Source of the DNA: Acidovorax sp. NCPPB 3576
Lineage (GTDB): Bacteria > Pseudomonadota > Gammaproteobacteria > Burkholderiales > Burkholderiaceae_C
DNA: 64,000 nucleotides
Assembly (NCBI RefSeq): GCF_028473605.1
Contig: NZ_CP097267.1
Span: forward strand, 1,790,501-1,854,500
Direction: 5' to 3'
Part shown: positions 2,894 through 11,199 of the stretch, one piece after another
How the letters are laid out: each line of letters opens with the position of its first letter
Numbering within the stretch: position 1 is the stretch's first letter
Program-made: the position numbers and the translations under genes
The notes under the pieces: model-generated
What the model was told of the DNA's origin: nothing
The model's database searches: none
What the model saw: the letters and a program-made list of their open reading frames with translations, nothing else

Positions 2894-2984
2894 GAAAGGT
2901 GTGGCCTTATTTTGCTGGTGATTTATGGATATGATGCCTTTATTGGCACATTTTTGGCACAGTCAGCAGCGAGTAGCGTTTTCA

Positions 2985-4121
2985 ATGGCAGCAATCAACA
3001 AGCGTGGCCCGTACCAGTGGCGGGCGCAGATCCGTAGGCATGGCTTTCCCCCTCTGAGTAAGACCTTCACGACCAAGGCCGAAGCCGAGGCCTGGGCGAA
3101 GATGAACGAGTCGGAAATGGCGCGTGGCGTCTGGGTCAGCAGGGGCGAGGCCGAGGCCACGACACTTCACGAAGCGCTGGAGCGCTACGAGGAAGAGGTG
3201 ACGCCAGGAAAGAAGAGCGCAGCCGGCGAGAAGTCGTTCTTGCGCATCTGGCGGGCCACCACGATGGCCAAGCGGCCGCTGGCGTCGATCCGCAGTGCGG
3301 ACGTGGCCAAGCTGCGCGATGTGTGGCTCAAGGAGTACCAGCCGGCCACGGTGCTCCGGCGCCTCGCTGTGTTGTCCCACGTCTTCACCATCGCGCGCAA
3401 GGAATGGGGCATGGAGAGCTTGTCCAATCCGGTCGAGCTGGTGCGAAAGCCGCAGCCAGATAACGCCCGTACCCGCCGCATCGCCGTGGAAGTGCCAAAG
3501 GCTGATCCTCTGCAAGCGGCTGATGAGCCGGCTCCGCGCAACGCCAGCGAAGGGGAGCTGGAGCGCGTCGTTGCGGCAAGTGGCTCGGTGATGCTGCCTG
3601 CGATCATCAAGCTGGCCGTCGAAACGGCCATGCGACGCAGTGAAATCGTGGGGTTGCGATGGGAGCACATCGACCTGGATCGTCGGGTGGCGCATCTGCC
3701 AGCAACCAAGAACGGCAACTCGCGTGATGTGCCGCTGTCCTCCCGTGCAATCCAAGTTCTCGCCGATTTGAAAGACGACGGGATCGACGCCAAGGAGGAC
3801 GGGGAAGAGCCCGGCGAATCAGGCACCGACGACGGGGCAGTGTTCAGCATCCGCAGCGATGCCGTTACAAGGGCCTTTGAACGCGCTGTGACGCGTGCCC
3901 GCAGGGGCTACCTGCATGAGTGCAAGGAAAAGCGCCAGAAGCCCGATGCGCGGTACCTCACCGATCTGCGTTTCCATGACCTGCGACACGAAGCCACTTC
4001 GCGCTTGGCTGAGATTTTTCCGCTGCATGAACTCACCAAGATCACGGGCCACAAAGACCCGCGAATGTTGATGCGGTACTACCACCCACGCGCCGAAGAC
4101 TTAGCCAAGAAGTTGAGCTGA
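2985..4121 (+). CDS. Tyrosine site-specific recombinase (integrase)
   Basis: A 378-residue phage-type integrase expected to recombine the element with the tRNA-Thr gene. An N-terminal Arm/SAM-like region (MAAINKRGPYQWRAQ) precedes the catalytic domain. Catalytic residues visible with this start are Arg at about 217 (ETAMRRSEIVGLRW), H331-x-x-R334 (FHDLRHEATSRL), His at about 356 (TGHKDPRM) and the nucleophile Tyr at about 365 (RYYHPRA). An in-frame ATG at 2925 is possible, but the extra 20 residues lack family character. Its position directly inside attL fits a functional element-encoded integrase. No excisionase is recognised. Confidence 0.93.
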   Translation: MAAINKRGPYQWRAQIRRHGFPPLSKTFTTKAEAEAWAKMNESEMARGVWVSRGEAEATTLHEALERYEEEVTPGKKSAAGEKSFLRIWRATTMAKRPLASIRSADVAKLRDVWLKEYQPATVLRRLAVLSHVFTIARKEWGMESLSNPVELVRKPQPDNARTRRIAVEVPKADPLQAADEPAPRNASEGELERVVAASGSVMLPAIIKLAVETAMRRSEIVGLRWEHIDLDRRVAHLPATKNGNSRDVPLSSRAIQVLADLKDDGIDAKEDGEEPGESGTDDGAVFSIRSDAVTRAFERAVTRARRGYLHECKEKRQKPDARYLTDLRFHDLRHEATSRLAEIFPLHELTKITGHKDPRMLMRYYHPRAEDLAKKLS

Positions 4122-4185
4122 GGCGGCGAGGGTCAGGTCCTGCTTGTTGTTGGTGAGCGCCGAGTGGAAGCGCCAAGAATCCTCT

Positions 4186-4215
4186 TTATTGGTGTTGTGA
4201 CCCATGGGTTACAAT
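4186..4215 (+). promoter_or_regulatory. Promoter with overlapping palindromic operator
   Basis: TTGTGACCCATGGGTTACAA (4195-4214) is symmetric at 9 of 10 base pairs. It overlaps a plausible -10 TACAAT (4210-4215), with TTATTG (4186-4191) as -35 at 18-bp spacing. It precedes the phosphoribosyltransferase/SLOG-HTH pair, and the likely repressor is the HTH domain of the second gene. This is inferred from layout. Confidence 0.6.
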
Positions 4216-4242
4216 GACAATCTTCGTTGAAAGGGGTTCGGC

Positions 4243-4830
4243 ATGGTCGCTATCCATCCGCAAAAGATCGACGGTAAGTGGCATTCGGGTATCGCCCTGG
4301 ATTTTCACACCACCAGCAGTACGCCTATTGGTCACAACGAATACGGACATATGCAGTTCGACACGGTAAGGCCGGAAATTGCCGAGCTGCTGTATCAACT
4401 CAAGTACAAAGGTAATCAAGCAGCAGCGCAGGGAATTGTCGCCACGGCTGCAGCGTACTTACAGCCGCATCGCACCCGATTCGATTTGATAATTCCTGTG
4501 CCGCCGTCGACCGCTCGACCTGTGCAACCCGTCCTCGTAATGGCGAATGGAATTGGCGCGGCGGTTCAACTGCCTGTAATTCAGTGCGTCACTCCTACCC
4601 GAGCAACTACACAGCTCAAGGGTGTGACTGACCCTAATGAGAGGAAGGAACTACTAGTTGGCCTTTACGCTGTTGACGCTCGATATACCAGTGGAAAAAA
4701 CGTGCTGTTGTTCGATGACCTCTTCCGATCAGGTTCTACTATGAACGCTATCACCGACGTGCTTCTTCAACAGGGTCGTGCGGCATCCGTGTGCGTTTTC
4801 ACTATCACCCGCACCAGGAGCAATCAATGA
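4243..4830 (+). CDS. ComF-like phosphoribosyltransferase domain protein
   Basis: A 195-residue type I phosphoribosyltransferase-like protein. The PRPP-binding signature VLLFDDLFRSGSTMNAI has the paired acidic residues at about D158-D159, and DLIIPVPPS with TRATTQLKGV resembles ComF-family amidophosphoribosyltransferases. The Cys-rich zinc-ribbon that begins classical ComF is missing. The start has AAAGGGG 8 bases upstream. The stop overlaps the next start (ATGA), so the two proteins are almost certainly made together. This stretch is visibly less GC-rich than the chromosome. No substrate can be assigned; a role in a nucleotide-linked conflict module is inferred from the SLOG-HTH partner. Confidence 0.8.
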   Translation: MVAIHPQKIDGKWHSGIALDFHTTSSTPIGHNEYGHMQFDTVRPEIAELLYQLKYKGNQAAAQGIVATAAAYLQPHRTRFDLIIPVPPSTARPVQPVLVMANGIGAAVQLPVIQCVTPTRATTQLKGVTDPNERKELLVGLYAVDARYTSGKNVLLFDDLFRSGSTMNAITDVLLQQGRAASVCVFTITRTRSNQ

Positions 4831-5705
4831 ACACCGTCTTCATCGGGGGGTCACGCCACGTGTCCCGTCTGTCCGCCCAAGTTAAAGAGCGCTTGAATAA
4901 CGTCATTAACAACGGCCACCAAGTGGTGGTTGGAGACGCCAACGGTGCCGATAAAGCGGTGCAAAAACATCTGCTGGAAGCCCACTACGATAAAGTAACC
5001 GTATTTTGCTCCGGCGAGAATCCTCGTAATAATCTCGGCGAGTGGCAGACTCACAATGTGATGCCGCCCAAGGGAGTAAAAGGGTTTCATTTCTACGCCG
5101 CCAAGGACCGTGAAATGGCACAGGTGGCGGATTTTGGCCTCATGATTTGGGACGGGAAGAGTCCGGGCACGGTATTGAACGTACTGCGTCTGATTCGTGC
5201 TGGCAAAATTTCTGTGCTTATCAATGTCCCAGAACAGACGCCTATCAGCATAAAAACGCCGACGCAATGGGATGAGTTTCTGTCTCACTGCAGCGCAGAG
5301 TTGCTTGCAGATTTGCGCGAACGAGCTACTCCGGACGAATGGGAGCCAGATAGCACAAGCGCGCAGCCCAGCTTTTTCGAGGCGTTGGAGTCGCCAGATA
5401 TCAAACCGATGCCGACGATTGAGTCGGGGCAAACCGAATCGACACTTCCCACGTCAGAGGATGAGTTGGCCGCAAGTCTCAATGCAGCGCTTGCGGCTGG
5501 CGATCCTGCCTCCGTCGTCGATGTGCTAGGGAATATAGCGAAGGCCCGTGGGATGACTCAGGTGGCTAAAGACGCCGGCTTGGCGCGCGAGAGCCTATAC
5601 CGCTCACTCGTGAACGGCGGCAACCCCGAGTTCGCGACAGTACTCAAGGTGATGGCTGCTGTAGGGTTGCGTTTAGAGGCCAACAGGACTCACGTCGGAG
5701 CGTAG
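4827..5705 (+). CDS. SLOG domain fused to HigA-type antitoxin HTH domain
   Basis: A 292-residue two-domain protein. Residues 1 to about 125 look like a Rossmannoid SLOG nucleotide-binding domain: MNTVFIGGSRHV, then VVVGDANGADKAVQ, then ADFGLMIWDGKSPGTVLN. After an acidic, probably disordered linker (about 170-220), the C-terminus (about 225-285) matches probable addiction-module antidote proteins (HigA/prophage type): LGNIAKARGMTQVAKDAG, then LARESLYRSL, then VLKVMAAVGLRL. The start at 4827 overlaps the upstream stop; an upstream ATG at 4791 lies inside the previous gene. The fusion suggests a regulator that couples sensing or binding of a nucleotide to DNA binding. Function is not established. 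Confidence 0.82.
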   Translation: MNTVFIGGSRHVSRLSAQVKERLNNVINNGHQVVVGDANGADKAVQKHLLEAHYDKVTVFCSGENPRNNLGEWQTHNVMPPKGVKGFHFYAAKDREMAQVADFGLMIWDGKSPGTVLNVLRLIRAGKISVLINVPEQTPISIKTPTQWDEFLSHCSAELLADLRERATPDEWEPDSTSAQPSFFEALESPDIKPMPTIESGQTESTLPTSEDELAASLNAALAAGDPASVVDVLGNIAKARGMTQVAKDAGLARESLYRSLVNGGNPEFATVLKVMAAVGLRLEANRTHVGA

Positions 5706-5711
5706 GTTATT

Positions 5712-5724
5712 TTTAGCGGCTAAA
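5712..5724. promoter_or_regulatory. KorB operator (OB-type), copy 1
   Basis: TTTAGCGGCTAAA is a perfect match to the IncP KorB operator consensus TTTAGC(G/C)GCTAAA as remembered for RK2. It lies in the 22-bp gap between two convergent genes and so is not promoter-proximal; KorB is known to act both near promoters and at a distance. Confidence 0.85.
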
Positions 5725-5727
5725 AAT

Positions 5728-5940
5728 TCAGGGCTGATTCCCTTTGCGCCGTGCACGCTCTCTCTCCGCAATCCCACTTGGCAATACGGCAAGATCGGCG
5801 CCGGAGAGGCAGGCTAAGACCTCGCTCAGCCGACGTGTTGACACATGCTTCGGGGGTTCGAAAACATACCCAGCAGCCCGCATGTCGTCCTCGATTTCCT
5901 CCGTGATGAAAAATGGCTCTGCTTCTGCGTGCTTGTTCAT
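5728..5940 (-). CDS. Small conserved-type hypothetical protein (70 aa)
   Basis: Not recognised. The protein is acidic at the N-terminus (AEAEPFFITEEIEDDMRAAG) and ends in a basic tail (ERERARRKGNQP). The start has a GAGG ribosome-binding site at normal spacing. It is in the same orientation as trbJKL and the 78-residue gene upstream and could be the last gene of that plasmid transcription unit. Its stop lies 3 bp from a KorB operator. A plasmid accessory role is inferred only from position. Confidence 0.55.
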   Translation of the reverse strand: MNKHAEAEPFFITEEIEDDMRAAGYVFEPPKHVSTRRLSEVLACLSGADLAVLPSGIAERERARRKGNQP

Positions 5941-6374: not shown

Positions 6375-8045
6375 TTACTGAGGGCGTCCGCTGACGAACG
6401 CTGCAACCTCGTCGTCAGCGACGGGAGCCTTGCCAAGACTGTTGCTGTCGAACGCGGCGGCGTCGTGTGACGCACCTTCTTGATCTCGGCTTGCCCGAAT
6501 CGCGGAAGCAATCTTTCCGCCCGTGGTTTCGCTGATGCGATCAAGAGCCGACTCGCGCATGCTCGCGGCCTTGGCCTTCGCCACGTCCCAGGAACCTTGC
6601 GCCAGGTTGCCCGCTGTGCCCGCAGCGATGGTCGCAGCACGGCCCAACATGCTGCCGGTGGAGCGTTGTTCGCCCGGTGCCAGGCCGGTGCCCAGCCCGC
6701 CTCCCTTGGCGTCAGAACCTGCGGCCTTGCCGCCCGCGTCGGCCTTCCCTTCGGCACCAGGTGCCGCACCACCGCCGCCCGCGTCCTTGCCCTCGCCGAC
6801 CGGCGCGCTGCCTTGGCCGCCCGAACCGCCGCCTTCGGAGGCACCACCACCGAAGCCGCCGCCCGAGCTGCTGCCGGAGCCACCGCCCGAGCTGCTGCCG
6901 CTGTCCATGCCAGCGAAGACGCTGCCACCGCCCGAGCTGCCGCTGCCAGGTCCTGCAGCTGCTGTAGCGACGCCGCCCATCGTTTCGCCCATGCCACCAC
7001 CGCCGCCGCCCTCGCTGGAGGCCGCAGAGGCTTTGCTGTAGGCTGCCTTGAGGGCCGATGCACCGCCAGCGGTCGAGGCTGCGCTACCCATCACAGCCGT
7101 ACCAGCCACGCTTGCTGCGCCTGCGGCCATGGTCGCGGCGCCCATCGCGGCCCCCATGGCCGCACCCGCGCCGAAGTTACCGATGCCACCCGCGCCGCCA
7201 ACACTTGAACCTGTGATGACGCCGGCGACGAGGGGAGGCACGCGGTTGACCAACATCAGCAACGCCAAGCAAAAAACCAGCATCACTCCCAGCTCTTCAA
7301 AGTTCAGCGTGCCCGTGTTCATCTTGGCGTAGAAGCTGGACAGCAGGTCGTTTCCGATGCCAACCAGCAGCACCATCGTCATGATCTGCACGGCCACGCC
7401 CAACACGGTCTTGTAGTAGTTGATCGCCATGTCCGAAGTCCACCGCGATCCACCGAACCCCAGGAAGAAGATCCCGGCGTAGGAGAGCAGCCAGCCCGAT
7501 ACAAGGAGGAGCAGCATGTTCACTGCGATAACGGCCAGCAGCAGCAGGATGCCAGCGCTCAAGACCGCGCCAATGAAGCTGTCGATGGGCGACCAGGCTG
7601 ACAGGTTGCGGATCGCCTGCTTCCAGATCATGAAGCCCACATCGACGATGCTGGACGGCGTGATCGAAGAAAAGCCGGAAGCCTGCTCGCCGATCCGCGC
7701 CAGTGACTGGATGATCGAGTTTGCGAAGTTCGGGCCGTTGCGCAGGAGCCAGAGGAAGAAGCCGAAGAACAAAATGAATTTGATGAACTCGGCGAAGAAC
7801 TCGCCAATATCGGCTTTTCGTAGCGCCATGAAGCCGAACGTGACCACCATCGAGATCATGCCCAACGTCCAGAACAGGAACATGGCGGCGTTCATCACCA
7901 CCGTTTGCCAGGCCGTGGCGCGCGTGGCGAACTCCGTGACCACCTGATCAAGCATCCCCTGGTTGGTGAGTTGGGCCGATGCGGCTGTGCAGCAGAGCGC
8001 GAGGAACGCACCGATCAGCAGCGCCGGCTTTTGCAGTGTTTTCAT
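6375..8045 (-). CDS. trbL: Conjugal transfer protein TrbL (VirB6-like inner membrane protein)
   Basis: A 556-residue polytopic membrane protein of the P-type mating-pair-formation system, equivalent to VirB6. A signal-like N-terminus (LLIGAFLALCCTAASA) is followed by several membrane segments within residues 40-290 (for example MFLFWTLGMISMVVTFGFMA, LLLLAVIAVNMLLLLVSGW and LMLVNRVPPLVAG). The C-terminal half is low-complexity Gly/Ser/Ala, as in TrbL. The start overlaps the trbK stop. Order trbJ-trbK-trbL agrees with IncP plasmids, but the rest of the Trb system (trbB-I) is absent from the window. Confidence 0.92.
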   Translation of the reverse strand: MKTLQKPALLIGAFLALCCTAASAQLTNQGMLDQVVTEFATRATAWQTVVMNAAMFLFWTLGMISMVVTFGFMALRKADIGEFFAEFIKFILFFGFFLWLLRNGPNFANSIIQSLARIGEQASGFSSITPSSIVDVGFMIWKQAIRNLSAWSPIDSFIGAVLSAGILLLLAVIAVNMLLLLVSGWLLSYAGIFFLGFGGSRWTSDMAINYYKTVLGVAVQIMTMVLLVGIGNDLLSSFYAKMNTGTLNFEELGVMLVFCLALLMLVNRVPPLVAGVITGSSVGGAGGIGNFGAGAAMGAAMGAATMAAGAASVAGTAVMGSAASTAGGASALKAAYSKASAASSEGGGGGGMGETMGGVATAAAGPGSGSSGGGSVFAGMDSGSSSGGGSGSSSGGGFGGGASEGGGSGGQGSAPVGEGKDAGGGGAAPGAEGKADAGGKAAGSDAKGGGLGTGLAPGEQRSTGSMLGRAATIAAGTAGNLAQGSWDVAKAKAASMRESALDRISETTGGKIASAIRASRDQEGASHDAAAFDSNSLGKAPVADDEVAAFVSGRPQ

Positions 8046-8311
8046 GGCCTCGCTCCCTTCTGATCTTTCGGGTCGGCCAGCTCAAGCCAGTTCATGGGCT
8101 TCTCGGTCGGCGCAATGCTGCCGCCAGTCGGGGATCGCCGCGAGCACAACCCGGCGAAGGTTTCGCGTGCCGCCTTGTCCTCGATCTTCCTGATCGTCTC
8201 GATCTGACAGTTGGTGTCGTTGACCTCGGGCATGGGCATGGTGGCCGGCTTGTTGTCGCAGCCGGCCAGTAGCGCCGCTGTGAGGCCGACGAGCAGCATC
8301 GTTTTTCTCAT
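8042..8311 (-). CDS. trbK: TrbK-like entry-exclusion lipoprotein
   Basis: An 89-residue small lipoprotein: a hydrophobic leader ends in the lipobox LLAGC (Cys near residue 18), followed by a short periplasmic part with a second Cys pair. In RP4/RK2, TrbK is the entry-exclusion factor encoded between trbJ and trbL, and this gene has that position, size class and leader. The C-terminus contains NWLEL, a motif also present at the extreme C-terminus of the neighbouring TrbJ. The stop overlaps the trbL start. If expressed, it should hinder entry of related plasmids into this host. Confidence 0.82.
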   Translation of the reverse strand: MRKTMLLVGLTAALLAGCDNKPATMPMPEVNDTNCQIETIRKIEDKAARETFAGLCSRRSPTGGSIAPTEKPMNWLELADPKDQKGARP

Positions 8312-8326
8312 GGTGCGCCTCTCTGG

Positions 8327-9109
8327 TCAGCGGGTCAGTTCGAGCCAGTTTTTGGGACTGCTCGTCTTGCCAATACGGGACTCCGTCGAAGTGGCGTGCG
8401 TCGCCTGCTGTCGGGCTTCAAGATCGGCCTCGGCTTGCATCCTGGTCGTGACCGCGTTTTGCTGTGCGATCAACAGGCCGCGAATCTGCAGGAGCTGGTT
8501 GGCCTGGTTGCTGGCAAGCTGGTTTGCAAACCCGATGGCCTGCATCTGGCCGCTTGCGCCCTGTGCCGCCGACTGAAGCCGTTCCAGCGTGCGCGAGTCC
8601 GAGGCGAGGTTTCTCTGCTGCTGTTCCAAGCCCTTGAACAGCGCATCATTGGCCTTCTTCTGGCTCTCGCTCGCCAGACGCCGGTTCTGTTCCATCGCTG
8701 CGCGCTCCGCGTCGCTGCATCCGCTGGCCGAGAAGCAGGGCGAAGATTTGTAGTAGCTCACGTCCTGGAACTTGCCGATGTAGCTGTCCAGGCTGCCGAG
8801 CTGGTTCTTGTAGTAGTCAAGCGTGTTGACGGCGTTCATCAATCCACTGATCGTTGACTGCGCCTGATCCCAGATATACGCGGCCGGCGCGACCGTGTTC
8901 TGGATCATGTTCTCGTACTGCTGGAGCTGAGTGCGGTACTGCTCGATCTGCTTGAGCGTCTGCGCCACGTTCTCGACGGCCGACATGACGGTCTGTGTCA
9001 GGTTGGCCCCGTCGATCACGGGAATGCCTGCAAGCACTGGGGTTGTAACGCCGGGAGCGGCGAGGGCAACCACCATGGCAACTTTAGCCGCTAAATTTTT
9101 CGTCTTCAT
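8327..9109 (-). CDS. trbJ: Conjugal transfer protein TrbJ (VirB5-like)
   Basis: A 260-residue periplasmic protein of the P-type transfer apparatus. An N-terminal signal peptide (MKTKNLAAKVAMVVALAA, then a predicted cleavage after VLAG) is followed by TQTVMSAVENVAQTLKQIEQY and long Gln-rich coiled-coil-prone helices typical of TrbJ/VirB5. AGGAGAG precedes the ATG. A perfect KorB operator (9083-9095) lies within codons 5-9, so repression and coding overlap. It is first in a trbJ-K-L unit that is known in IncP plasmids to include entry-exclusion functions. The protein ends in NWLELTR. Confidence 0.92.
   Translation of the reverse strand: MKTKNLAAKVAMVVALAAPGVTTPVLAGIPVIDGANLTQTVMSAVENVAQTLKQIEQYRTQLQQYENMIQNTVAPAAYIWDQAQSTISGLMNAVNTLDYYKNQLGSLDSYIGKFQDVSYYKSSPCFSASGCSDAERAAMEQNRRLASESQKKANDALFKGLEQQQRNLASDSRTLERLQSAAQGASGQMQAIGFANQLASNQANQLLQIRGLLIAQQNAVTTRMQAEADLEARQQATHATSTESRIGKTSSPKNWLELTR
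9083..9095 (-). promoter_or_regulatory. KorB operator (OB-type), copy 2, inside trbJ
   Basis: On the minus strand this reads TTTAGCGGCTAAA, perfect to the KorB operator. It begins about 14 bases after the trbJ ATG and encodes residues LAAK. KorB bound here would block transcription of trbJKL or read-through from upstream. Confidence 0.85.
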
Positions 9110-9139
9110 GCTGAACTCTCCTGTTGAAAAGAAATTGGG

Positions 9140-9514
9140 TCATCGTTTGGAGCGAGGCATAACGACTTCGCGCATGGCCTCATACATTTGATTTTGGTTT
9201 TGATCTATTTTTGAAAGCAGTGCGCGAATAGTCGATTCACCGAATCGGCGAGTCCGTACGTCGTCTGTAAGCCAAAGCTTTAGCAGTCCACCTAGCCGCC
9301 CTAAATCACCATTTATGCGAGCCAGTTCTTCAACGCGTTTGTTGTCGACAATAGATTTCACCTGATATCCCATTCCTAAATTCCGTAGAAATGTGGAAGT
9401 GCTGAGTCCAGTTGCTTTTGCCAGCGATGTGATTTCGTATTTCTCATCTGGCGTCACCCAAACATTAATGGGTGTGTGCCCTTTTCTGGTGGCAGCGGAT
9501 TTGCGCTCAGGCAT
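9140..9514 (-). CDS. traJ: Relaxosome/oriT-binding protein TraJ
   Basis: A 124-residue ribbon-helix-helix relaxosome protein; in RK2 (123 residues) TraJ binds the inverted repeat beside nic and recruits the relaxase TraI. The stretch ELARINGDLGRLGGLLKLWL followed by TDDVRTRRFGESTIRALL is close to the RK2 protein as remembered, as is INVWVTPDEKYEI at the N-terminus. Start 9514 (MPERKS) gives the family length; in-frame starts further upstream would lie within oriT. The oriT immediately upstream has the RK2 arrangement. The relaxase gene that should follow is missing; trbJ follows instead. Confidence 0.9.
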   Translation of the reverse strand: MPERKSAATRKGHTPINVWVTPDEKYEITSLAKATGLSTSTFLRNLGMGYQVKSIVDNKRVEELARINGDLGRLGGLLKLWLTDDVRTRRFGESTIRALLSKIDQNQNQMYEAMREVVMPRSKR

Positions 9515-9529
9515 GGCTGGTTGCATTTC

Positions 9530-9650
9530 GGCGGTAGCCGATTGCCTCGCAGAGCAGGACTCCCCGTTGAGCACGAAGTGCGAATAAGGGGATGGCGAAG
9601 AACATGAACCGGCTTGCCGGTACATGTACTTCGCCCATCCTGCCCGTACT
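9530..9650. other. RK2/IncP-type origin of transfer (oriT)
   Basis: On the minus strand the traJ-proximal part contains CCCCTTATTCGCACTT, GTGCTCAACGGGGAGTCCTG and CTCTGCGAGG in the same order and spacing as RK2 oriT as remembered. On the plus strand CTTCGCCCATCCTGCCCG matches the RK2 nic region (CTTCACCTATCCTGCCCG), giving a predicted nick between 9642 and 9643 (ATCCTG/C). A TraJ-site-like inverted repeat lies between. Confidence 0.88.
9597..9632. repeat. Putative TraJ-binding inverted repeat in oriT
   Basis: GAAGAACATGAACCGGC and GCCGGTACATGTACTTC form 17-base arms matching at 15 of 17 positions around a 2-base centre, ending 10 bp before the predicted nick. The position equals that of the TraJ site in RK2, but the arm sequence differs, suggesting co-evolved binding specificity. 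Confidence 0.75.
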
Positions 9651-9823
9651 TTCGCGCCATGAAGTACGCTGTCGCCGCGTCAACTTCATCGCCTCGATCA
9701 CGCTGCTTAACGAATGCAGCTGGCCTGCAGCGCGAAAATAGCGCTGACTGATCGAAAGTGTTGTGCCAGTAGCATTCAGGCAGCGCATTGATAGTGCATT
9801 GACTGAGTAGAAAAAGCGATTCG

Positions 9824-10159
9824 TCACAGCAGTTCGTCCCTCTTTGGGTTTGGACTGAATGAGAACGAAGTGGATGCATTCGCTGTTTTTGATTGGCTTT
9901 GGTTTCTCGTCTTTTTTGTACTTGTGCTTTTCTTGATATGGCGATGAACGTATTTGAGGAACGTTTCATAGCGGAATGAAACTCTCTTTCTTTCTCGCAA
10001 ATGTTCCCATATGGTTTTCAGCTCGAAGCCGGCATCTATTGCTTCGCGGACATTTTCAGAAACTGCGAGGAAAGACGCCAAGGTCGTAGCATGTGTCGAT
10101 TTATTTCCTTTGCGCTCACTTAACCATTCGGCTAGATCGTTTCGATAATTTCCCATCAC
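9824..10159 (-). CDS. traK: oriT-binding protein TraK homologue
   Basis: A 111-residue basic protein. The pattern LAEWLSERKGNK, then FLAVSENVREAIDAGFEL, then TIWEHLRERKRVSFRYETF, then a Lys/Ser/Thr-rich linker and a terminal FSFSPNPKRDELL agrees with RK2 TraK, which wraps the leading side of oriT. In RK2 traK points away from oriT; here it is on the same strand as traJ and its 3' end faces oriT, so the gene is inverted relative to that plan. The start overlaps the stop of the preceding 80-residue gene. Confidence 0.82.
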   Translation of the reverse strand: MMGNYRNDLAEWLSERKGNKSTHATTLASFLAVSENVREAIDAGFELKTIWEHLRERKRVSFRYETFLKYVHRHIKKSTSTKKTRNQSQSKTANASTSFSFSPNPKRDELL

Positions 10160-10398
10160 TCAGTTCCTTTTCTGATTAGATCGCCGGTGAGTAATTCGGC
10201 AACCGCATCCGTTGGAAAATGAACTCTACGTCCAATGTAAATCTTCCGGCTATTCAAGCTTATGGCCCATTCCTCTGTTCGCATGGCCAGGACCACACGA
10301 ACTCCTCCAGGCTTGCGTTTCAGAACAACCGCAAGTTCCTCTAAGGTCATTGTTGGTCCGTACTTCTGAAGAAGAAAATCGAGAGGGGTGGTCGCCAA
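10156..10398 (-). CDS. Small plasmid protein, probable DNA-binding (80 aa)
   Basis: An 80-residue protein read from a TTG start preceded by AGGTGAG at good spacing. The segment MTLEELAVVLKRKPGGVRVV resembles a helix-turn-helix of the AlpA/excisionase type, and RRVHFPTDAVAELL looks like the following wing. It is translationally coupled to traK (4-bp overlap), so a role in controlling or assisting the relaxosome is plausible. Family assignment is tentative. Confidence 0.6.
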   Translation of the reverse strand: MATTPLDFLLQKYGPTMTLEELAVVLKRKPGGVRVVLAMRTEEWAISLNSRKIYIGRRVHFPTDAVAELLTGDLIRKGTE

Positions 10399-10418
10399 AT
10401 TCTCACCTGTGACAGTTA

Positions 10419-10436
10419 ATCGAAGTTAATTTCGAT
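10419..10436. promoter_or_regulatory. Inverted repeat in divergent promoter region
   Basis: ATCGAA and TTCGAT flank a 6-base AT-rich centre in the 117-bp gap between the leftward traK unit and the rightward 227-residue gene. It is a candidate operator controlling one or both. No protein is assigned to it. Confidence 0.4.
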
Positions 10437-10515
10437 GAATTTTGTGCTGGTTTACGTTATATTTCCAGGTAATGGCAGGCGAAATTTACTACCCGGGCAA
10501 TTTGCCCTAATCATC

Positions 10516-11199
10516 ATGAAGTCGACCGCAGAGATACGCCGGCATATCGCACGCACCACAGCGTTACTTCGCATGCTGTGCGAGCGTGAAGGAATCACAT
10601 CAATTTACGGGTTTGCAGTGAAATACGATGCGTCGGCGGCGCCCGTGCACTTGACTCGCTATCACGGGAAAAATGGATGGCAGGCGTTATTTAAGGGCGT
10701 GCGGCCGTTATCCGCAGCCAGGCTGCGTGCGCTTTCTGCCGTAGAAGCGTGGTCAGATGCAACCACCCTCTATGAGAATGGCCCTGAGAATCTTTGGAGG
10801 GCGATGTGGGGGCCGCCCGACCAGCTCCGCCTTGTCATTGCGGACGAGCTAAACGAATGTCGAAGTTTCGATCAAGTTGTCGCTGAATTCGAGGGAGAGT
10901 TACTGCTGGCCCACGAATATCGCGCACCGCTGACCCTTGTGCATCTTGCGAAGGCAATTGCACTTTATCGATTGCAATACGAAATTCTCGGGTTGAGTGA
11001 TGCCGGCGTAAGCGGTGGTGTCGCACAATGCTTGTGCAATGAGGTCTTACAAGCGGAGATGGAGCGCCTGGGAGTCAGGCAAATGGTCAATGAGGAGTTG
11101 GCGAAGTTTCACAGAACTGGAGCCAATTACGAATTCACCTCTTTAACTGTGGCTGCTCGATGGGAGGCCGTTGCAGCACGGCTGGATTGGGTCAGTTGA
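10516..11199 (+). CDS. Hypothetical plasmid protein (227 aa)
   Basis: Not recognised. The protein begins MKSTAEIRRHIARTT; an in-frame ATG at 10435 is rejected because it lies in the putative promoter. Residues 1-60 contain a region (SIYGFAVKYDASAAPVHLTR) that could be a degenerate phage-repressor-like HTH. The rest is predicted helical, without membrane segments or signal peptide. It stands alone, divergent from the traK operon, and a KorB operator lies 43 bp past its stop. Base composition is lower in GC than the chromosome. A regulatory role is only a guess. Confidence 0.6.
   Translation: MKSTAEIRRHIARTTALLRMLCEREGITSIYGFAVKYDASAAPVHLTRYHGKNGWQALFKGVRPLSAARLRALSAVEAWSDATTLYENGPENLWRAMWGPPDQLRLVIADELNECRSFDQVVAEFEGELLLAHEYRAPLTLVHLAKAIALYRLQYEILGLSDAGVSGGVAQCLCNEVLQAEMERLGVRQMVNEELAKFHRTGANYEFTSLTVAARWEAVAARLDWVS

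Follow-up and report, generated by a model that had tools for sequence, protein, structure and literature searches.

Positions 4186-5705 of a 64,000-nucleotide stretch of the Acidovorax sp. NCPPB 3576 genome (assembly GCF_028473605.1, contig NZ_CP097267.1, positions 1,790,501-1,854,500 of the forward strand; this whole stretch is the window, and coordinates below are positions in it) carry two intact genes, encoding a phosphoribosyltransferase (PRTase) and a protein that joins a SLOG domain to a helix-turn-helix (HTH) motif. We propose, with a probability of about 0.72, that this pair is an autorepressed toxin-antitoxin (TA) module of the PsyrTA/RqlHI and ShosTA kind, with the PRTase as the toxin and the SLOG protein as the antitoxin; toxicity, neutralization, DNA binding and repression, the trigger and a role in defense are what we infer for it. 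The module probably serves phage defense or maintenance of the element that carries it. What we observed directly are the domains, the coupling of the two genes, their co-inheritance, the relation of the PRTase to PsyrT and ShosT, a conserved putative operator that goes with the HTH, and a slot common with restriction-modification-like genes. The features of the pair are the following.

4195-4214 (core 4196-4213), unstranded: palindromic putative operator TTGTGACCCATGGGTTACAA, found by a palindrome scan within the stretch 4186-5705 and absent from the original prediction made for this DNA
4210-4215, plus strand: possible -10 hexamer TACAAT, read from the sequence, which overlaps the right half of the putative operator
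4243-4830, plus strand: ComF-type PRTase of 195 amino acids (aa), the proposed toxin
4702-4740, plus strand: phosphoribosyl pyrophosphate (PRPP)-binding loop VLLFDDLFRSGST (D158, D159, G164)
4827-4830, plus strand: ATGA overlap between the PRTase and SLOG-HTH genes (translational coupling), with the ATG of the second gene at 4827
4827-5705, plus strand: SLOG-HTH protein of 292 aa, the proposed antitoxin and autorepressor
4827-5336, plus strand: SLOG domain (residues 1-170)
5451-5684, plus strand: HigA-type HTH (residues 209-286 of 292; TIGR02684, PF21716)

As originally predicted, a ComF-like PRTase gene is coupled to a SLOG-HTH gene, by a 4-base ATGA overlap between two intact frames. The PRTase displays weak but consistent matches to TIGR00201 (ComF, 2e-10) and PF00156 (1.4e-4), both under the curated cut-offs. 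In PADLOC, it matches PsyrT (6.5e-15), with residues 46-194 covering positions 540-687 of the profile, i.e. its C-terminal domain, and ShosT (2e-8). No helicase match was found in this 195-aa protein by profile searches, including PADLOC. D158, D159 and G164 are invariant in the 10 PRTases compared (ShosT included) and in 18 close ones, and position 162 is R in the window PRTase, T in ShosT and D in RecQ-PRTases. Four PRTases that are 34-46% identical (L046, L048, L058 and L062) have downstream neighbors that PADLOC assigns to PsyrA/ShosA, with E-values of 6.9e-55 and 2e-41 for the protein at L046, and at L062 a RecQ-type helicase is fused to the related PRTase. By sequence, the window PRTase thus appears to belong with the PsyrT/ShosT toxins, and because related PRTases have PsyrA/ShosA partners and a RecQ fusion, we place the pair in one broad kind with PsyrTA, RqlHI and ShosTA. 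Two related arrangements were seen as well. A Flavobacterium locus (L058, 2362-7186) has in a row a RecQ-PRTase gene, a second PRTase fused to a long N-terminal region (both identified by eye) and a PsyrA-type gene (1e-82), a doubled PsyrTA-like layout. The PRTase frame is broken or cut in five close loci (L003, L033, L043, L047 and L049), and the antitoxin frame downstream is intact in four of these (not L049), as expected of decaying toxin genes.

This relationship bears on novelty, since the pair had been put forward as a new kind of system. The PsyrT/ShosT matches of the PRTase led us to reject a wholly new kind, and PRTase plus DprA-type pairs are already published as TA and anti-phage systems in passages of PMC9122126 and PMC4670107. 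Passages of the former (Rousset et al.) report protection from T7 and lambda by a DprA+PRTase pair, citing homologues of DprA as antitoxins, and passages of the latter report that RqlH toxicity needs the PRTase domain and is restrained by RqlI. According to parts of a review (PMC12593503) summarizing Pu et al. 2025, ShosT acts as both phosphoribosyltransferase and pyrophosphatase and disturbs purine pools, and ShosA binds DNA. The window pair shares with PsyrTA/RqlHI a PRTase domain of the PsyrT kind, the toxin-antitoxin gene order and an operon organization, but its PRTase has no helicase and its antitoxin is not PsyrA. It differs from ShosTA in that ShosT of Peduovirus P24C9 is a 424-aa protein encoded after ShosA (order A-T), whereas the window PRTase has 195 aa and comes first, and in that the window partner, unlike the DprA-like ShosA, is missing the N-terminal part of DprA and has a HigA-type HTH.

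The fusion of a SLOG domain to an addiction-module HTH, also part of the original prediction, stands. In scans run on the SLOG-HTH protein minus its first residue, the HTH scored 95.3 bits against TIGR02684 (cut-off 53.7; 1.9e-27) and also matched PF21716 (1.4e-24); in the organism's own genome (5.41 Mb), this protein is the only TIGR02684-family match. The SLOG domain shows a weak match to PF02481 (3e-4, under the cut-off), and the predicted structure of residues 1-170 supports its assignment, the best VIA-align rows being TM1055, MoCo carrier, YpsA, LOG, ShosA and DprA, which we take to be SLOG-fold proteins. Confidence in the model is low for the HTH part (about 60). At E ≤ 0.001, Foldseek found nothing for the SLOG-HTH model, and the best rows, all weaker than this, are a mix of TRPM channels, ShosA, LOG and DXR reductoisomerases; the SLOG profile gave no match at E ≤ 1 when searched by sequence against solved structures. 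LOG phosphoribohydrolases have the catalytic motif PGGxGTxxE. The corresponding stretch here is GKSPGTVLN, in which the Glu position is Asn118, and we rejected a LOG-type hydrolase on this basis. In PADLOC, the second protein has no PsyrA match at E ≤ 1, whereas strong matches are obtained for the partners of the four related PRTases. Antitoxins that have no HTH also retain the most conserved SLOG residues, which therefore cannot serve transcriptional control alone. The SLOG protein is small, distinct from DprA, spread over many phyla, and fused to this HTH in one clade.

Next to one another in this genome, the two genes are also found together elsewhere, as the original prediction expected of a neighborhood survey. 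A scan of one genome per species yielded 61 PRTase loci (L050 and L051 being twins). The PRTase is directly followed by a short SLOG gene at 51 of these and by a DprA-type gene at seven (four by PADLOC; L052, L055 and L061 by eye), with neither seen at the remaining three. The overlap is exactly 4 bases at 50/63 PRTase-SLOG junctions, and the distance matrices of the two proteins are correlated (r 0.876, 0/1000 permutations, n 53). When searched from the SLOG side, a PRTase adjoins the SLOG match in 7/7 genomes (own genome included; 398 were drawn from the phylum). The PRTase-SLOG pairing is thus not due to chance. Pairs of a PRTase and a short SLOG protein without HTH, for which we found no name, occur in many phyla and share with the window pair the gene order, the overlap and both domains, but they have neither HTH nor operator. 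In the partially covered literature, no description of a SLOG-HTH antitoxin with a PRTase was found among the matches listed. A phage-borne pair in the phage collection was rejected, as the PRTase had no tblastn match there at 1e-5. Two gammaproteobacterial loci, L005 (Lysobacteraceae, 8585-10939) and L010 (Rhodanobacter, 8585-11009), which have no HTH and no operator, are cases in which a modification enzyme is linked to the PRTase/SLOG pair: L005 has an in-frame fusion of the SLOG partner with a DNA methyltransferase (PF01555, 1e-28), and in L010 a type III methyltransferase (4e-90) closely follows the SLOG partner.

The putative operator accompanies the HTH. In HTH loci, a palindrome with the pattern TGTARCC-N4-GGYTACA begins 28-59 bp before the PRTase. 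At ≤1 mismatch, it is present in 24/24 loci with this HTH (19 exact), in 0/4 loci with a diverged HTH (for one of these, L063, just the end of the PRTase is present, making its upstream region a guess), and in 1/44 other loci. The last figure becomes 1/36 once unusable loci are dropped (fused L044, L055, L058 and L062; twin L051; start-extrapolated L050, L052 and L061) and is unchanged when 600 bp are scanned. L049, with a malformed upstream slice, is outside the 44, and the own-genome duplicates L001, L069, L072 and L102 and the distant PRTase L002 are outside the operator count. The sole HTH-less locus with the palindrome, L017, ends inside the SLOG gene at a contig end, and the palindrome is not present where the HTH is missing (L005 and L010) or changed (L004, L012 and L033). 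The site occurs in shuffled upstream regions with a frequency of 1.4e-4 per region, and in the organism's own genome the window site is the only match to TGTRACCCATRGGTTACA at <3 mismatches. A Fisher test of operator versus HTH gives p 1.7e-17, ignoring relatedness. In a tree of 64 PRTases (quick search, midpoint root; L003, L033, L043, L047, L049, L050, L051, L054, L061 and L063 omitted), the 21 included HTH loci all fall within a single supported group (26 rows), in which the HTH has been lost or has diverged in a few cases. The conserved putative operator before the PRTase supports the HigA-type autoregulation that had been predicted. A scan for consensus sigma-70 promoters found none in 4100-5900, and terminator-like matches are at chance level; the possible -10 overlapped by the right half of the palindrome would fit repression.

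Similar sites occur in ordinary TA operons. Among 23 stand-alone TIGR02684-type loci fetched from a much longer list, nine have an operator-like site at ≤2 mismatches, against a shuffled background of 0.004 per locus. Eight of the nine sites lie 377-432 bp before the HTH, six of these within ∼30 bp of the start of a RelE/HigB-like toxin open reading frame (ORF) identified by eye, and many stand-alone members of the family have a RelE-like ORF upstream (by eye). The window pair therefore shares with HigB-HigA modules that have TIGR02684 antitoxins the HTH family and, at 9/23 loci, a similar upstream operator, but its upstream neighbor is a PRTase and not a RelE/HigB-like toxin, and its HTH is fused to SLOG. 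The simplest reading of these sequences is that a HigBA-type operon was the source of the HTH, such an operator coming along. A Sinorhizobium meliloti plasmid (L127, 1132-3840) carries a SIR2-family gene and a PRTase together with a SLOG protein whose HTH is unmatched by the HTH model made here, and in Methylorubrum (L065, 4597-5457) the SLOG protein has an HTH of another family (PF13744); the fusion to an HTH may have occurred more than once.

The pair is integrase-adjacent cargo of an integrative element, as predicted, and lies in a slot whose content is exchangeable.

2925-4121, plus strand: tyrosine integrase (PF00589, 2.5e-26), 5' of the pair and belonging to the integrative element
4097-5711 (edges approximate), unstranded: exchangeable cargo slot of the element, defined by DNA alignment with the sister element L122
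5710-5726, unstranded: inverted repeat TTTTTAGCGGCTAAAAA, located at the slot's right edge and for the most part also present in the sister element

A sister species (G411) has the same element in the same place, with a 95% identical integrase. Alignment with its element, L122, shows 93.8% identity up to 4096 and 94.9% from 5765, with different content between. There, the slot holds a MerR-like gene (by eye) and a gene for a 1029-aa N6-methylase with Eco57I/MmeI matches (PADLOC type IIG, 8e-19); the tested part of the gene after the methylase has no Pfam match. The pair has a G+C content of 54%, compared with 62-63% for two other stretches of the element. Past the slot, minus-strand genes at 6375-9109 look like conjugation genes, with relatives of TrbL/VirB6 and TrbJ/VirB5 (by eye). 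We surveyed flanking genes at 21 of the 24 HTH loci (112 of 114 listed ORFs, no control set). A defense-type gene lies within 5 kb at five HTH loci, a count that has no control set for comparison: a mads-type protein (L011), SIR2 (L018), a DUF4263/CBASS-endonuclease-like protein (L020), Gabija GajB (L029) and an OLD-like ATPase (L068). When 18 flanking ORFs of HTH loci were scanned singly, five matched defense models and 13 none, and a CBASS cyclase was tallied in the survey, not traced to a locus.

The relation of the PRTase to PsyrT/ShosT, the wide recurrence of the pair, the HTH with its putative operator and the restriction-modification-like genes that the slot holds in the sister element all support the TA-like or defense-like module of the original prediction. 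In the mechanism we propose, the PRTase, using PRPP, would harm the cell when free, most likely by disturbing the nucleotide or PRPP pool; if it acted as ShosT does, it would target PRPP or purines. The SLOG-HTH protein, made in step through the ATGA overlap, would restrain the PRTase via its SLOG domain, and its HTH tail would bind the palindrome at 4195-4214, overlapping the probable promoter, and repress the operon. If the antitoxin were lost or titrated, for example during phage infection or upon loss of the element, the operon would be de-repressed and the PRTase released.

Several observations weigh against this proposal. RqlH D663, which matters in that protein according to passages of PMC4670107, appears to align with R162 of the window PRTase, in a motif aligned by eye. 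The SLOG protein is by sequence not ShosA (PADLOC 0.016; hhalign P 0.44), and we rejected this identity; the short SLOG partner examined, that of L031, has no PADLOC match at 0.1. The palindrome pattern was derived from many of the same loci in which it was counted, only L073 (0 mismatches) being unseen among the HTH loci, so that 24/24 is a description and not an independent test. In addition, the HTH was gained about once and the tree gives 1-2 independent contrasts, which means that the operator-HTH link does not amount to many independent correlations. The weight of the operator evidence lies in a palindrome that is intact amid otherwise differing upstream DNA, with proteins down to ∼52% identity, and that is absent without the HTH. 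The 23 stand-alone TIGR02684-type loci were likewise unseen when the pattern was derived, and the 14 of them without a site at ≤2 mismatches count against the proposal, as do three plasmid SLOG relatives, 3/3 of those examined, that have no PRTase within 4 kb. The latter (L124, L125 and L126, on plasmids of Sphingobium, Shinella and Methylobacterium), picked because their plasmids were missing among the PRTase matches listed, could be orphan antitoxins or anti-defense proteins.

How the short SLOG partner acts may also differ from known antitoxins. Because it is without the extra domains of DprA, it may neutralize differently, by direct or nucleotide-mediated inhibition. A bolder version, which we regard as rather speculative, is that the short SLOG protein is an antitoxin unlike DprA/ShosA, which has no DNA-repair domains and would neutralize the toxin by binding to it or to its substrate or product; within the HTH clade, the nucleotide-binding state of the SLOG protein would also set repression, and a change in nucleotide pools at the time of infection would free toxin and promoter together. 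If true, this would be a self-contained nucleotide-sensing alarm, built from a PRTase/SLOG pair to which the regulatory half of a HigBA module was fused.

Among the alternatives, the one that fares best, although it is still rather unlikely, is a maintenance (addiction) module with no anti-phage role, whose toxin would punish loss of the integrative element. The pair does adjoin the integrase, its HTH and putative operator resemble those of ordinary TA operons, and 41/64 plasmid records with a PRTase relative, mostly a distant one, are predicted to be conjugative; the two HTH-type plasmids that were opened are typed non-mobilizable. Nevertheless, restriction-modification-like genes replace the pair in the sister element, and because that slot holds them the element does not need the module. 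The five HTH loci near a defense-type gene (L011, L018, L020, L029 and L068), counted without a control set, also speak against a pure addiction role.

Improbable in our view is a nucleotide-responsive regulator, in which the SLOG domain would sense a nucleotide and the HTH would tune a non-toxic salvage PRTase. SLOG folds of other families bind nucleotides, and the SLOG domain here has invariant pocket-like motifs, which together with the HTH and putative operator would suit such a role. Set against this is the relation of the PRTase to the PsyrT/ShosT toxins. Moreover, most relatives outside the HTH clade have a SLOG protein without such an HTH, and hence the basic job of the SLOG partner is not transcriptional. 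Competence/DNA-uptake genes (ComF and a DprA-like gene) that have ended up on a mobile element are very hard to reconcile with a ComF profile score of 41 versus a cut-off of 234, another distant PRTase match in the genome (24% identity) that is a candidate housekeeping ComF, a SLOG protein that is not DprA, no match in two same-genus genomes among the 398 drawn, and the apparent HigA-type autoregulation.

Taken together, what is new in the autorepressed PRTase/SLOG module proposed here is the variation in the antitoxin, a short SLOG protein with an HTH, and the regulatory signature, as the PRTase toxin is of a kind already known. Few PRTase toxins with SLOG/DprA antitoxins have been tested, and all have DprA-type partners in the literature passages covered. 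The loci described here have a minimal SLOG partner and a constant gene order in many phyla, and in one clade the regulatory half of a HigBA-type module is present along with its type of operator. The operator and HTH constitute a sequence signature for finding further members, and the pair, as a simple minimal system, lends itself to experiments on how PRTase toxins are held in check by SLOG domains.
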